Source of the DNA: an uncultured Allomuricauda sp.
Lineage (GTDB): Bacteria; Bacteroidota; Bacteroidia; Flavobacteriales; Flavobacteriaceae
DNA: 64,000 nt
Direction of reading: 5' to 3'
Assembly: GCF_947499695.1 (NCBI RefSeq)
Contig: NZ_CANMPQ010000004.1
Coordinates: 1-64,000, forward strand
Shown: positions 54,396 through 59,658 of the stretch, one piece after another
Position numbering within the stretch: position 1 is the stretch's first letter
Layout of the letters: each line of letters opens with the position of its first letter
Made by a program: the position numbers and the translations under genes
Notes under the pieces: model-generated
What the model was told of the DNA's origin: nothing
The model's input: only the letters and a program-made list of their open reading frames with translations
Databases searched by the model: none

Positions 54396-55859
54396 TTATT
54401 TGTTTAAATCAGCCAAAGCCGCTTTTACTTCTTTAAAATCATCAAAGTCCACACGAACCCCATTTGTTTCCTGATAGGTTTCATGTCCCTTGCCCGCCAC
54501 CAAAATGATGTCATTGGCCAAAGCCAATTTACAGGCGGTCTTTATCGCCTGTTTTCTATTTTCAATGGACAGAATTTTTTTGGTATTGTGAGCTTCTACC
54601 CCGGCTTCCATTTCTTCAATAATCGCGGAAGGTGATTCCGTTCGTGGATTATCGGAGGTAAAAATGGCCTGATTGCTCATTTCAGATGCGATATGACCCA
54701 TAACCGGACGCTTAGACTTATCACGGTCACCACCACACCCCACTACGGTGATGACGTTTTCATTTCCAGTCCTCAATGCATTGATAGTTATCAACACATT
54801 TTTTAGCGCGTCCGGAGTATGGGCATAATCAACAATTGCCGTTATTTTCTCTTTTGATATATGATATTGGAACCTACCATCAACATTCTCTAATTCACTG
54901 ATAAGTTGAAGGGTCTCCATTTTTTCAAGCCCTAAAACATCTGCAGTGGCATAAATGGCCAATAGGTTATAGGCATTGAAATCTCCAATCAGTTTTGTCC
55001 AAAGCTCGTTTTCATCAACCTTTAATAGTTGCCCGTTGAACTGTTTTTCCAAGATTTGAGCTCGATAATCCGCATAAGATTTTAGAGCATATGTGAGCTT
55101 TTTGGCTTTTGTGTTTTGCAACATTACCAACCCATTCTTATCGTCGATATTGGTTAGAGCAAAAGCTGTTTTCGGTAGGTCGTCAAACAGTTTTTTCTTG
55201 GTATCCCGATATTCTGCAAAGGTTTTATGATAGTCTAAATGGTCATGGGAGAGGTTGGTAAAAATGGCACCTTCAAAATGAAGACTTTCCGATCTTTTTT
55301 GATGTATTCCATGTGAGCTTACTTCCATAAAACAAAACTCCACCCCTTCTTCATTCATTTGGGAGAGATACTGATTAATAGTAAGTACATCTGGTGTGGT
55401 GTGAGTTGCAGGATACTCTGTATCATCTACCATCACCTTTATAGTGGAAATCAATCCTACTTTAAACCCTGCTTTCTTAAACAAACGGTACAATAAGGTG
55501 CTAACCGTTGTTTTGCCATTTGTACCTGTAATGCCAACAAGCTTTAAGTTTCTTGAAGGGTTATCGTAGAAGTTGGCCGCGATGGTCGCCAAAGCACTAT
55601 TGCAATTTGGGACTTTTAAATAGGTAACTCCATTCACCAAAATATCTGGAAGTTCTTCACATACTACCGCTTTTGCCCCTAATTCGATAGCCTTTTCAAT
55701 GTATTTATGTCCATCAGTTGTTAAACCTCGAATGGCAACAAAAACATCATCCATTTCAACTTTTCTGGAATCGAAATGGACATTTTTCACCATAACGTTG
55801 GTATCTCCGCTAACAGCAGCAAGGCTCACCTTATATAATATGTCCTTTAACAACCTCAT
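54396..55859 (-). CDS. murE: UDP-MurNAc-tripeptide synthetase (meso-diaminopimelate adding)
   Basis: The 487 residues show LVGITGTNGKTTVSTLL (ATP loop), FTNLSHDHLDYHKTF, and TSDNPRTE. DNPR is the motif that selects meso-diaminopimelate rather than Lys, so the peptidoglycan should be of the DAP type. It overlaps the ftsI stop by 4 bp (ATGA). The usual next gene, murF, is not in this cluster. Confidence 0.96.
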   Translation of the reverse strand: MRLLKDILYKVSLAAVSGDTNVMVKNVHFDSRKVEMDDVFVAIRGLTTDGHKYIEKAIELGAKAVVCEELPDILVNGVTYLKVPNCNSALATIAANFYDNPSRNLKLVGITGTNGKTTVSTLLYRLFKKAGFKVGLISTIKVMVDDTEYPATHTTPDVLTINQYLSQMNEEGVEFCFMEVSSHGIHQKRSESLHFEGAIFTNLSHDHLDYHKTFAEYRDTKKKLFDDLPKTAFALTNIDDKNGLVMLQNTKAKKLTYALKSYADYRAQILEKQFNGQLLKVDENELWTKLIGDFNAYNLLAIYATADVLGLEKMETLQLISELENVDGRFQYHISKEKITAIVDYAHTPDALKNVLITINALRTGNENVITVVGCGGDRDKSKRPVMGHIASEMSNQAIFTSDNPRTESPSAIIEEMEAGVEAHNTKKILSIENRKQAIKTACKLALANDIILVAGKGHETYQETNGVRVDFDDFKEVKAALADLNK

Positions 55860-57865
55860 GAAAGTTCCAGTACAATTTTTTTGACTTGATCAATATTTGT
55901 GCCCTGATCTACCGATTGTTTTCTAACCTTTCCGTTTCCCTTTACTTCAACTCGTATTCCCAGATTTTCTAACAGAGAAACCGCATCCATTCCACACATT
56001 CCCTGAACATTTGGAACTTGTTTGTGGTTCATCTGAACTTTTGCATAATACCTCTCGTAATTTTCCTCTAACTCCTTATCATTCAAGGCCTTGCCCTCAA
56101 CTTCGTCCACCATTGGAGATGTTGTGTAAATCTTTTGCGCCATGGATTTGAAAACCGGTCCAGAAACGTCTGCTCCATAATAACCTACGCTTTTATCAGG
56201 TTCATGAATGACCACGATACATGAGTATTTTGGATTGTCTGCAGGGAAATAACCAGCAAAAGACGAGATATATGCCATTTTATCTGGGTCTTTTGCTACA
56301 TAATTCTTTTGCGTGGTGCCCGTCTTTCCGGCCATGGAAAAACTCTTGGAATATAGTCCGTTGCCTGTCCCATAGTCCTTTTCCACCACATCTTTAAGCA
56401 ATTGTTGGACCTTATTAACGGTTTCTTTTGAGCAGATGGAAGGGTTTAAGACTTCCTTATCAAATTTCTCCAAGATTTTGCTCCCTTCACGCACAGCTTT
56501 TATCAATCTAGGTTTTACATATTCCCCATCATTGGCTATGGCATTATAAAATGCTAGGGTTTGCATTGGCGTAAGAGATACTTCGTAGCCATGTGACATC
56601 CATCCTAATGAAATACCAGACCAACCCTTATCGCCAGGATAACGAATAACCGGTTTTCCTTCTCCGATTATAGGTAACTCTAATTTTTTATGAAGTCCCA
56701 TATTCATCAAGCGATTGACAAACTTCTCTGGGGTTTCTTTATAATTTTCGTGGATAATCTTCGCGAAAGCGGTATTGGAAGAGACAGCGAAAGCATGGGA
56801 AGCAGAGATTTTACCGTACCCTCCCCATTTTGAGTCTTTGACCACCCTATCATAGATTCGATATCTTCCTTTTTCAGTATCGATTACGGTACTGGTATCT
56901 ATTACTTTATCTTCAAGAGCGGCCACCATGGACATCAGCTTAAAGGTAGAGCCGGGTTCATGGGATTCACCAACAGCATAATTCAGCTTTTCATAATACT
57001 TTCCTTCAGAGGTGCGGCCCAAATTGGAAATTGCCTTGATTTCACCAGTTGCCGTTTCCATCACAACAACACAACCATGATCTGCATTGTATTTTTCAAG
57101 TTGCGCCAATAGTTCGTGATGTGCTATATCTTGAATATTGATGTCGATAGTTGAAACAACATCCAATCCATCTTGAGGCTCAACAATATTATCAAGACCA
57201 ACAGGTTTCCACTGCCCTTTGGCTATTTTCTGCTTCAACCGTTTTCCTTCTTTCCCCCTTAAGTACTGTTCTCCGAAAGCACCGTCAAGCCCCACTCTTG
57301 TATAATATCCGTTTTCATCTACACGTTCGTATCCAATACTTCTAGCCGCCATTTTACCCAAAGGATATTCCCTTACCACACGATGGGTTTCAATGAATCC
57401 ACCTTTATATGGACCTAATTTGAATAATGGGAATTGCTTGATTCGGACATAGTCCAAATAATCTACATTTCTTGCTACCAGTTTATAACGATTGCTATTG
57501 GCTCTAGCTTTTCTGAAAAGCTGTCTGTAGTATGACGAGGGCTTATTAAAAAGGAATCCCAATGAATCAGATAAGGCAGCTACGTTATTTTGAAAGTTTT
57601 CTTCTGAAACGGTCTTGGCATCAAATCTAATCTCATACTTTGGAACTGAGGCAGCCAATAAACTGCCATCATCGGAATATAAATTTCCGCGATTAGGTTC
57701 GATAGTGAACATTTTCTCAGTGTTGTTCAACGCCAACTCCTTATAATCTTCACCCTTGATCATCTGGATATCCACTAGTTTCACCACAACACAAATAGCG
57801 AAGACCAGCAGACCCCCTGCCACCAGGTAAAGTCTGTTCATGATATTTTTTTCAGTAATCGCCAC
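55856..57865 (-). CDS. ftsI: septal peptidoglycan transpeptidase (class B PBP) with PASTA domain
   Basis: The 669 residues contain one N-terminal helix, a dimerisation domain, and a transpeptidase domain with EPGSTFKLMS (SxxK Ser), SSNTAF (SxN) and AGKTGTTQ (KTG). A C-terminal PASTA domain (VPNVQGMCGMDAVSLLENLGI) follows. It cross-links septal wall with FtsW. The start is a GTG at 57865 that overlaps the ftsL TAG by one base; ATG 57841 is a weaker alternative. Confidence 0.95.
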   Translation of the reverse strand: MAITEKNIMNRLYLVAGGLLVFAICVVVKLVDIQMIKGEDYKELALNNTEKMFTIEPNRGNLYSDDGSLLAASVPKYEIRFDAKTVSEENFQNNVAALSDSLGFLFNKPSSYYRQLFRKARANSNRYKLVARNVDYLDYVRIKQFPLFKLGPYKGGFIETHRVVREYPLGKMAARSIGYERVDENGYYTRVGLDGAFGEQYLRGKEGKRLKQKIAKGQWKPVGLDNIVEPQDGLDVVSTIDINIQDIAHHELLAQLEKYNADHGCVVVMETATGEIKAISNLGRTSEGKYYEKLNYAVGESHEPGSTFKLMSMVAALEDKVIDTSTVIDTEKGRYRIYDRVVKDSKWGGYGKISASHAFAVSSNTAFAKIIHENYKETPEKFVNRLMNMGLHKKLELPIIGEGKPVIRYPGDKGWSGISLGWMSHGYEVSLTPMQTLAFYNAIANDGEYVKPRLIKAVREGSKILEKFDKEVLNPSICSKETVNKVQQLLKDVVEKDYGTGNGLYSKSFSMAGKTGTTQKNYVAKDPDKMAYISSFAGYFPADNPKYSCIVVIHEPDKSVGYYGADVSGPVFKSMAQKIYTTSPMVDEVEGKALNDKELEENYERYYAKVQMNHKQVPNVQGMCGMDAVSLLENLGIRVEVKGNGKVRKQSVDQGTNIDQVKKIVLELS

Positions 57866-58182
57866 TACTTATTGGATTTGACCTTAATTTTTTGCGGGGG
57901 AATTTTCGATGGTTTCAGTCCTTCTACAGCAACTGTATGACGCAAGGTTGATTCCAATTTCATTTGCTGAACCCTGGAGCGGTGTTCAAAGAACTCACTC
58001 TTCAGTTTTCTTACTTCTTCGCTCAAAGCGGCTATTTCGTGCACTTTTTTATCGGCATTATGACTACTGGAAATCATCATTGCTGCCAGAAAAGAAGCAA
58101 ACAGCAAAAACATCCAGTTTTTGGGAGCGTCTCCGCTCACCAAAAACTTTCCTTTTAATAGATCCAGTATTCCCTTTTTCAT
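57865..58182 (-). CDS. ftsL: FtsL-like cell division protein
   Basis: The 105-residue protein has one helix (WMFLLFASFLAAMMISSS, residues 23-40), then a periplasmic heptad-like helix (HEIAALSEEVRKLKSEFFEHRSRVQ) and a basic tail. The size, topology and position between rsmH and ftsI fit FtsL, although sequence identity to E. coli FtsL cannot be claimed. Confidence 0.85.
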   Translation of the reverse strand: MKKGILDLLKGKFLVSGDAPKNWMFLLFASFLAAMMISSSHNADKKVHEIAALSEEVRKLKSEFFEHRSRVQQMKLESTLRHTVAVEGLKPSKIPPQKIKVKSNK

Positions 58183-58194
58183 TTTTGTGTTCGG

Positions 58195-59100
58195 TTATTT
58201 TATTAGTTCCGCTATTCGGAGTTTTGCACTCCTTGCACGGTTGTTTTTTGCTATTTCTCCGGCTGATGGGATAATTAACCCTCCTACTTTCCTTAATGGA
58301 ACATCTATATTTCCATAAAAATCCTTTTCCGCCTCTCCTTCAAAACGTCCAGCCCTGATATAGCGTTTCACTAATCGGTCTTCCAATGAGTGATAGCTAA
58401 TCAAACTCAACCGCCCTCCTACTTTCAGAACTTCGGGCACTTGGAGCAAAAACTCTTTGAGCACCGCAATCTCCTGATTGACCTCAATGCGAATGGCCTG
58501 ATAGATTTGTGCCAAAATCTTGTTCTCTTTCATCTTCGGCAAAAACCTACTCAATGTCTTCTTCAAGTCATCTGTGGTTTTTATAGGTCCATCTTGTCTG
58601 GAGGCTACTATTGTTTTTGCCATGGCATTTGCATTTCTCAATTCACCATATTGAAATAATACCGATGCCAACTCTTTTTCTGGGTACTTATTAACCACTT
58701 CGTAAGCGGATAATTCATTGCTTTTGTTCATCCTCATATCCAAATCCGCATTGAAACGAATAGAGAATCCCCTGTCCGCCTTATCAAACTGGTGGGAAGA
58801 AACCCCAAAATCTGCTAAGATTCCATCAACTTTCTGAATGCCATAGAACTTTAAATACTGTTTGAGAAATTGAAAGTTTTGATTGATCAATTGAAATCGC
58901 TCATCATCTATTGCATTCGCTAACGCATCCTCATCTTGATCAAAGGCAATCAACTTGCCCTCACTTCCTAATCGTCTCAGTATTTCCCTAGAATGTCCGC
59001 CGCCGCCAAAAGTGACATCTACATACACTCCATTTTCTTTAATGTCCAACCCATTGACCGATTCTTGTAATAACACCGGGTTGTGGTACTCGCTAGTCAT
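58195..59100 (-). CDS. rsmH: 16S rRNA (cytosine-1402-N4)-methyltransferase
   Basis: From ATG 59100 the product is 301 residues (an in-frame TTG is three codons earlier). 'YHNPVLLQESVNGL', VDVTFGGGGHSREIL, ILADFGVSSHQFDKADRGFSIRF and SLISYHSLEDRLVKRYIR are family marks. RsmH (MraW) methylates C1402 of 16S rRNA. Its start overlaps the end of mraZ by 8 bp. Confidence 0.96.
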   Translation of the reverse strand: MTSEYHNPVLLQESVNGLDIKENGVYVDVTFGGGGHSREILRRLGSEGKLIAFDQDEDALANAIDDERFQLINQNFQFLKQYLKFYGIQKVDGILADFGVSSHQFDKADRGFSIRFNADLDMRMNKSNELSAYEVVNKYPEKELASVLFQYGELRNANAMAKTIVASRQDGPIKTTDDLKKTLSRFLPKMKENKILAQIYQAIRIEVNQEIAVLKEFLLQVPEVLKVGGRLSLISYHSLEDRLVKRYIRAGRFEGEAEKDFYGNIDVPLRKVGGLIIPSAGEIAKNNRARSAKLRIAELIK

Positions 59101-59548
59101 CGTCGTCAAAAATCTCCTCTGCTAAATCGGCATAATCTTTTTCACCTTCAGCCAAGACCGCTTCATACTTATCCTTGTTCCAAATTTCTATCTTGTCAAA
59201 AACTGCGTTGAGCACAACTTCCTTTCCGATTTCTGCGTAAGTGACCAAGTTCTTTGGTATTTGCAGCCTACCGGTATCGCCATCAATCACAACTTCTTGC
59301 ATACCAGCAACAAAATTTCTCACAAAAGCATCATACTTGCGATTTATTTTGCTTTTCTTCATCACCTTTTGCATCAAAACATCGAATTCCTCTTTTGGAT
59401 ACAACTCCAAGCATTGCTGAAAAACCGACCTTTTGATTACAAAGCCTTCCTTCAAAACAGGCAACAACTGATTCTTTAAGGATATGGGCAAAATCACCCT
59501 TCCTTTGGTATCAGCTTTACAATTATGTTGTCCTATGATATGGGTCAC
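59093..59548 (-). CDS. mraZ: transcriptional regulator MraZ
   Basis: MraZ is a DNA-binding repressor at the head of the dcw cluster. The 151 residues hold two AbrB-like units, with CKADTKGRVILPISLKNQL in the first and GDTGRLQIPKNLVTYAEIG in the second; the DxxGR core is present in both. The start is GTG 59548; an in-frame TGA lies three codons upstream and no ATG fits. Phased GTGGA boxes upstream are the likely binding site for this protein. Confidence 0.94.
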   Translation of the reverse strand: MTHIIGQHNCKADTKGRVILPISLKNQLLPVLKEGFVIKRSVFQQCLELYPKEEFDVLMQKVMKKSKINRKYDAFVRNFVAGMQEVVIDGDTGRLQIPKNLVTYAEIGKEVVLNAVFDKIEIWNKDKYEAVLAEGEKDYADLAEEIFDDDD

Positions 59549-59577: not shown

Positions 59578-59585
59578 CAAATATA
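59578..59585 (-). promoter_or_regulatory. -7 promoter element TATATTTG of the dcw operon
   Basis: On the minus strand TATATTTG fits TAnnTTTG and predicts a leader of about 27 nt before mraZ. Confidence 0.65.
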
Positions 59586-59596
59586 TAGATTTTATT

Positions 59597-59658
59597 TCCA
59601 CATTTCTCCACTAAACACCACATTGTTGATAAATTTTCCACTTTTTAAAGAAATCCAC
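59597..59658 (-). promoter_or_regulatory. putative MraZ operator: phased GTGGA/GTGGT boxes
   Basis: On the minus strand GTGGA, GTGGA and GTGGT occupy 59597-59601, 59607-59611 and 59617-59621, exactly 10 bp apart. A further GTGGA lies at 59637-59641 (20 bp on), and one out of phase at 59654-59658. E. coli MraZ binds three TGGGN repeats with 5-bp spacers, so the geometry is the same with A or T in place of the third G. The array begins 12 bp upstream of the -7 element and would cover the -33 region, which fits autorepression. Confidence 0.7.

Follow-up and report, generated by a model that had tools for sequence, protein, structure and literature searches.

Which proteins read the row of regularly spaced GTGG repeats upstream of mraZ in this flavobacterium, and what would they do at the promoter of the dcw cluster? 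MraZ is a ring-forming protein. Its operator at the dcw promoter of E. coli was reportedly described by Eraso et al. in 2014, and the core of the E. coli MraZ box is TGGG. The MraZ operator as such is already known. The site studied here is a variant of it, and the part that calls for attention is its combination with a second element, a 9-mer. The window is the whole stretch of 64,000 nucleotides that was analysed, from an uncultured Allomuricauda sp.

The mraZ locus and the layout of the array

The genes of the locus were as follows.

59093..59548, minus strand: mraZ (GTG start), two MraZ domains (PF02381, 78.8 bits, two stretches; TIGR00242, 96.9 bits)
58195..59109, minus strand: rsmH (mraW), dcw gene no. 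2 (TIGR00006, 309.9 bits; PF01795)
57865..58182, minus strand: ftsL-like gene, Bacteroidota type (PF19579 FtsL_2, 132.4 bits)
55856..57865, minus strand: division transpeptidase, FtsI/SpoVD-like, PASTA (PF00905, PF03717, PF03793)

Because mraZ is followed by rsmH and by the FtsL-like and FtsI-like genes, the locus is the head of the dcw cluster. A 264-bp intergenic region separates mraZ from a divergent alpha/beta hydrolase gene (59813, plus strand). The Pfam score of the MraZ protein exceeds the PF02381 cut-off of 23 bits, and in the genome search both domains lay above this cut-off. The NCBI equivalog TIGR00242 was the best family, but the score is 1.45 bits short of its cut-off of 98.35. 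We class the protein as MraZ on the strength of its Pfam profile and of its position ahead of rsmH, as first gene of dcw, and not as a TIGR00242 equivalog. A DxxxR motif in each domain is a hallmark of MraZ and forms no part of the PF02381 or TIGR00242 cut-off. D13-R17 is kept in the first domain and the motif of the second is one residue longer, so that the hallmark is present in one domain of the two.

The following elements lie upstream of mraZ.

59578..59585, minus strand: TATATTTG, putative -7 element, its start 16 nt downstream of that of box 1; TTG at -33 absent
59597..59601, minus strand: MraZ box 1 (GTGGA), promoter-proximal, predicted from the sequence; 10-bp register conserved
59607..59611, minus strand: MraZ box 2 (GTGGA), predicted from the sequence; conserved
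59617..59621, minus strand: MraZ box 3 (GTGGT), predicted from the sequence; least constant of the three within the genus
59624..59632, minus strand: TTATCAACA, DnaA-box-like 9-mer at the place of a skipped box, recognised by comparison
59637..59641, minus strand: distal GTGGA box, 20 bp upstream of box 3, from the sequence

Read on the minus strand towards mraZ, the order is GTGGA-aaatt-TATCA-acaat-GTGGT-gttta-GTGGA-gaaat-GTGGA-aataaaatcta-TATATTTG, and the GTG start of mraZ is at 59548. The boxes stand at 0, 10, 20 and then 40; place 30 is part of TTATCAACA and holds no box. The preliminary description had placed three boxes at 10-bp steps here and a fourth in phase with them, and both its coordinates and its spacing were right. 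An extra GTGGA, out of phase with the others, is found at 59654-59658 (minus strand), 17 bp further upstream than the distal box.

The pattern GTGGN6GTGGN6GTGG occurred once in the window and in none of 100 dinucleotide shuffles of the whole window. Shuffling the dinucleotides of the 264-bp intergenic region 20,000 times likewise never produced it on either strand. The single match in the 3.73-Mb genome was the dcw site, and the reversed pattern gave none.

Conservation of the array and its tie to mraZ

A total of 248 mraZ upstream regions in the phylum were compared: 30 from the genus, 120 from other members of the family, 22 from the rest of the order, 15 from the rest of the class and 61 from the rest of the phylum. 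These ranks are kinship labels of the sampled genomes, and the species counted are not independent events. The genus sample was 30 of the 39 genomes with a match. The family sample consisted of 29 loci and 80 others chosen from the same draw of one genome per genus, which listed 144 genomes with matches, and of 11 more; the order sample consisted of 20 chosen loci and 2 others, and the class and phylum samples together of 16 loci and 60 of 79 further rows. The mraZ starts were set by an alignment profile, and GTGG pairs were counted within 170 nt of the start.

A GTGG pair at a step of 10 was found in 223 of the 248 regions; the steps 6-9 and 11-15 were each found in at most 5. By rank, the step-10 pair was present in 30/30 regions of the genus, 118/120 of the other family, 21/22 of the other order, 10/15 of the other class and 44/61 of the other phylum members. 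The boxes are therefore kept upstream of mraZ in most relatives. We reject a chance occurrence of the array in view of the shuffles, of its uniqueness in the genome and of this step-10 count. Three consecutive exact GTGG were seen in 17/30 genus members, 109/120 other family members and 13/22 other order members. The remaining 13 of the 30 genus members had only two exact GTGG consecutively; when GTGT was counted as well, three GTG[GT] in a row were present in 29/30. The distal box of the relatives is mostly 21 bp up, with spacing 41 versus 40 at 28 to 2 in the genus and 32 to 3 in the other family members.

The exact 3-box pattern adjoined mraZ in 49 of 60 family genomes. Of these genomes 58 have mraZ, and 9 of those 58 were without an exact match. 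Away from mraZ the pattern was found at 10 places in 4 of the 60 genomes, 7 of them forming one tandem repeat in a single genome (G080), and the reversed control gave 11 places in 5 genomes, 7 again in G080. Since the places away from mraZ are at the level of the reversed control, the exact 3-box array is practically private to dcw in these genomes. In the 60 family genomes, the exact 3-box criterion suggests no wider MraZ regulon.

About 40 genomes gave no MraZ match; 11 of them were queried for rsmH and 6 gave a match, while the other 5, probably gaps, were set aside. In the 420 nt that precede the rsmH match, neither a GTGG pair at 10 bp (0/6) nor the 9-mer (0/6) was found in these mraZ-less genomes, three of which are small and belong to one family (f14), so that they represent fewer than six independent losses. 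As boxes and 9-mer are both absent, these genomes cannot separate the two elements. Near-complete genomes without a MraZ match were G196, G197, G062 and those of family f34, which supplies 6 of the 9 such genomes in the phylum sample.

The array accompanies mraZ and is kept in relatives, and on this comparison the GTGG repeats very probably serve as the MraZ operator at dcw. The earlier interpretation is partly supported: its tie of the boxes to mraZ is borne out, and its claim of a shifted base preference is only partly right.

Box core and the fifth base

The mraZ boxes of E. coli K-12, GTGGGAAATT-GTGGGGCAAA-GTGGGAATAA, are in the same 10-bp register and have the GTGG core. The E. coli operator shares with the present one the 10-bp direct repeats upstream of mraZ, this core and the position of mraZ as the first dcw gene; base 5 of its boxes is G, whereas here it is A or T. 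Within the phylum, base 5 was T 88, G 7 and A 3 percent in the other family members (345 boxes), G 45, T 40 and A 14 percent in the other order members (55 boxes), T 58, G 31 and A 10 percent in the other class members (29 boxes), and G 76, T 18 and A 3 percent in the other phylum members (102 boxes). By the majority within each promoter, it was A in 30/30 genus members and T in 113/118 other family members with at least two boxes. In the family consensus of the box, GTGGTAAAA, A occupies the third (91%) and the second base (82%) ahead of GTGG.

The shared core, E. coli included, is GTGG preceded by A-rich DNA, and the core TGG(A/T)N proposed in the preliminary description is therefore one end of a drift. 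The earlier claim of a new form is right only by half: GTGG is also the core in E. coli, and the change is confined to base 5, with A in the genus, T in the other family members, and G or T further out. Judged by these alignments, A/T at base 5 is best read as lineage drift and not as a new kind of box.

The base preference of MraZ may have shifted together with base 5. MraZ of the genus carries an insertion at column 91 (window 59276-59278, minus strand; second conserved loop), which is D in 29/30 members and E in 1/30, and this column is a gap in 193/193 aligned MraZ outside the genus. Q96 is found in 30/30 genus members, in 4 other family members and in 11 other order members, and L stands there in 107/118 other family members. 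The insertion at residue 91 and Q96 coincide with base-5 A in the genus, but this is one clade. A mutual-information ranking of MraZ residues that track base 5 was dominated by lineage and hence gives no proof.

The boxes of Mollicutes MraZ are AAAGTG[T/G] (Fisunov et al. 2016, quoted in an excerpt of PMC8475190). They repeat an A-rich half with GTG after it. The boxes studied here likewise have A ahead of GTG, and GTGT is a variant box in the genus. In the same excerpt, the second G of GTGG is less fixed in the Mollicutes boxes, those of M. genitalium are placed at the mraZ promoter only, and a second element is not mentioned.

A promoter with a -7 element and without -33

TATATTTG matches what we take to be the consensus of the Bacteroidota -7 element. 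The distance from the start of the last box to that of TAnnTTTG is 14-16 nt in 30/30 genus members and 116/120 other family members. Across the order, 162 promoters have a -7 element by TAnnTTTG (30 in the genus, 118 in the other family members and 14/22 in the other order members). None of these 162 mraZ promoters has TTG at a spacer of 17-23; the background elsewhere in these regions is about 16%. Among the hup promoters described below, TTG stood at exactly 19 in all 28 (of 30) that have the -7 element. The absence of the -33 TTG, together with the position of the array, indicates that the boxes occupy the -33 place.

In E. coli, the boxes lie between a -10-like TAAACT (our own assignment) and the ATG, with TGGG at -43, -33 and -23 from the ATG. 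Here the boxes are upstream of the -7 element and over -33, whereas those of E. coli are downstream of the likely -10. From these sequences we infer that, in this order, the phase between array and promoter has changed, and that the action of MraZ may differ as well. The missing -33 predicts that MraZ works otherwise here than in E. coli. Neither the lack of the -33 element nor the conserved TTATYAACA at the position of the skipped box had been noticed in the preliminary description.

The second element TTAT(C/T)AACA

Exact TTATYAACA was present in 147 of the 172 members of the order, 29-34 nt upstream of the last box, and 157/172 had 8 or 9 of its 9 letters. At six shifted offsets used as control, matches of 8 or 9 letters numbered at most 4. 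Among 160 near-matches (at least 7 of 9), position 5 was C in 66, T in 89, G in 4 and A in 1, position 6 was A in 156 and C in 4, and the other positions were nearly invariant. The 9-mer occurred twice in the window (2.56 expected), which is not above chance, and TTATCMACA occurred 159 times in the genome against 126 for the reversed control, which is little above it. Since the 9-mer is unremarkable in window and genome, the case for it is comparative only. On the same strand upstream of E. coli mraZ, TTATYAACA was not found.

The idea that the 9-mer is a fourth MraZ box was rejected: TATCA bears no resemblance to GTGGN, and the 9-mer recurs before hup, dnaB and parA, genes that serve chromosome packing, copying or partition.

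The 9-mer before hup, dnaB and parA

In the genome of the window, a tandem 9-mer pair lies before hup at C1:413420-413448 (L263:2021-2049, minus strand). The hup sample comprised the best 30 loci (L269-L298) of 60 family genomes, found by a search with the HU protein. The identity of HU to the Allomuricauda, Croceivirga and Croceitalea loci was 93-97%, which makes the sampled family probably the Flavobacteriaceae. Within 260 nt upstream of hup, at least one TTATNAACA was present in 30/30 of these best family loci and at least two, 20-21 bp apart, in 28/30. A TTG-N19-TAnnTTTG promoter stands downstream of the tandem in 28/30.

Tandem 9-mer pairs were found at 39 places in 24 of 30 relatives, and the reversed control gave 1. 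Thirteen tandem loci were read: 6 are before dnaB (genus), 3 before hup, 1 between gyrA and clpC, and 3 without an assigned gene. In all six dnaB loci the tandem lies between accA and dnaB (L302:1501-1529, L300, L304, L311, L313 and L324). In one genus member, TTATCAACA in tandem with an 18-bp step is located between divergent gyrA and clpC (L310:1501-1527).

A scan of public genomes for tandems with a 20-bp step, which had no control of its own, gave at least 118 stretches, of which 80 were examined. By BLAST against reference proteins, 39 of the 80 were before hup and 6 before dnaB. Another 12 were before a ParA/Soj-type gene, all in Bacteroidales by title (e.g. L336:3106-3134); this call was made by reading the N-terminus, with the family checked on one. 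The other 23 comprised 6 before other genes, 6 inside genes and 11 without a usable downstream gene, several because the stretch ends. No GTGG run was visible in the hup, dnaB and parA tandem sequences that were read.

DnaA as the candidate factor

By the shape of the site and by its targets, DnaA is the obvious candidate. From the sequences, we put the chance that DnaA is the factor at TTATYAACA slightly below even. TTATYAACA agrees at 8/9 positions with the DnaA box TTATnCACA (excerpt of PMC5742627), and position 5 varies in both; unlike that box, the 9-mer has A, rarely C, at position 6. The window 9-mer TTATCAACA does not match the DnaA box TTATNCACA, with C at position 6 in only the 4 near-matches mentioned above. 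Because the strict consensus is departed from at this position, the 9-mer is called DnaA-like only.

The recognition helix of DnaA is DHATV in the three Bacteroidota genomes read, namely that of the window (L261:1501-1776), Phocaeicola and Parabacteroides. It is DHTTV in the five solved DnaA chains aligned (of six matched); in DnaA of four other bacteria it is DHTTV in three and DHSTV in Sphingomonas. The Thr that is replaced by Ala in DHATV corresponds to T435 of E. coli DnaA. The T435M mutant is defective in box binding (excerpt of PMC5742627), and T435 is among the base-recognising residues (excerpt of PMC7561715). Domain IV of a cyanobacterial DnaA shifted and footprinted an origin with boxes including TTATCAACA, more weakly than an origin with perfect boxes (excerpt of PMC4674748). 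An origin predicted by software in Elizabethkingia has three boxes within one mismatch of TTATCCACA and lies away from dnaA (excerpt of PMC8994065). Blattabacterium is described, in an excerpted source, as being without dnaA or DnaA boxes.

In the genome of the window, no TTATN[AC]ACA was found in the 3.1 kb before dnaA, and oriC was not located near dnaA, where there is one TTTTCAACA only. Two dnaA-carrying stretches of Bacteroidales, searched for a cluster of the 9-mer, had 0 and 4 scattered sites. A search for DnaA in viral contigs gave none. No paper on TTATCAACA and DnaA concerned Bacteroidota by title among open-licence papers. The genome of the window encodes a second, short protein with the DnaA C-terminal domain at G000:C5:60781-60936 (PF08299, E 2.6e-7, 146-aa frame).

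As a tentative and rather doubtful extension, DnaA of Bacteroidota (DHATV, Ala for Thr) might read the shifted box TTAT(C/T)AACA and thereby control hup, dnaB, parA and perhaps gyrA. In this order it might also control dcw, where a promoter without -33 would carry the site inside its MraZ array. If this is true, dcw would be a two-input switch that reads replication through DnaA and the level of a division protein through MraZ.

Proposed mechanism and its alternatives

The comparison of sequences itself provides the conservation of the array, its exact period, its near-uniqueness at mraZ, its absence in the mraZ-less genomes tested and the missing -33. We believe, with a rough probability of 0.8, that the array is the MraZ operator of the dcw promoter, by which MraZ would control its own operon, and that a second protein, DnaA or another chromosome-cycle regulator, would act at TTAT(C/T)AACA. 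Binding by MraZ or DnaA, the ring geometry and the regulatory sign are what we infer here. MraZ, encoded just downstream, would contact the three successive GTGG boxes from the same side of the helix, one subunit to each turn, and the further GTGG box about two turns up may also belong to this platform. In this order the platform would cover the place of the missing -33. MraZ would thereby govern how RNA polymerase reaches, or is recruited to, TAnnTTTG, and hence its own operon. Inside the array, the second protein would bind TTAT(C/T)AACA. We take this protein for DnaA, or for another regulator of the chromosome cycle whose site resembles that of DnaA, since the 9-mer recurs ahead of hup, of dnaB in the genus and of parA in Bacteroidales; such a protein would couple the state of replication to division-gene expression.

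The tie between division-gene expression and chromosome replication is an open question in bacteria. MraZ boxes combined with a 9-mer that is common to hup, dnaB and parA would be a concrete, testable link of division to replication. Among the matches listed in the open-licence literature, there was no paper on MraZ sites in Bacteroidota, which is weak evidence of absence, and none tying dcw expression to replication in this phylum; no paper was found there on the recent MraZ structures 9qlg, 9r4j, 9sx6, 9sz7 and 9qlr.

It is unlikely, in our view, that the array is solely a repressor operator of MraZ, as in E. coli, with TTATYAACA as an accessory AT-rich part (a degenerate fourth contact or a bend) unrelated to replication. 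The 9-mer does occupy the phase where a box is missing and keeps a constant distance from the array, but in that register it has no match to GTGG, and before hup, dnaB and parA it forms tandems without a visible GTGG run. The joint absence of boxes and 9-mer in the 6 mraZ-less genomes agrees with such an operator, as does repression by MraZ in E. coli and Mycoplasma genitalium (excerpt of PMC8475190). Repression alone, however, leaves the missing -33 (162/162) unexplained.

We regard it as highly improbable that the GTGG boxes themselves are DnaA boxes forming a DnaA platform, with no MraZ operator. TGTGGAAAA resembles the reverse of TTTTCCACA, and box 1 of the window, TGTGGAAAT, is close to a backwards DnaA box; but the A-rich DNA before GTGG in the family consensus and the strict 10-bp steps argue against this, as do the presence of the boxes with mraZ and the same register at E. 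coli mraZ. Least probable of all is chance or shared ancestry without function, because, although most of the intergenic region is conserved within the genus, the flanks are hardly conserved across the family while boxes, 9-mer and -7 stand out, and the 10-bp step recurs with different flanks in other classes of the phylum and in E. coli.

Returning to the composite operator of MraZ and a second protein, we lean slightly towards activation of dcw by MraZ here, the alternative being repression as in E. coli. The reason is that under repression one would expect the promoter to have retained its -33. In the 15 regions of the other class members, a promoter motif by a crude definition was downstream of the array in 4, on both sides in 1 and on neither in 9, with no array in 1. 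In the 61 regions of the other phylum members, the same crude motif was upstream in 7, downstream in 0 and on neither side in 42, and 12 had no array. Because the motif in other classes is mostly unrecognised or upstream of the array, the regulatory sign is not transferable to them. In Neisseria elongata, MraZ is an activator: its deletion lowers and its overexpression raises the expression of dcw genes, and it controls the first genes of the cluster, as proposed here (excerpt of PMC9395523).
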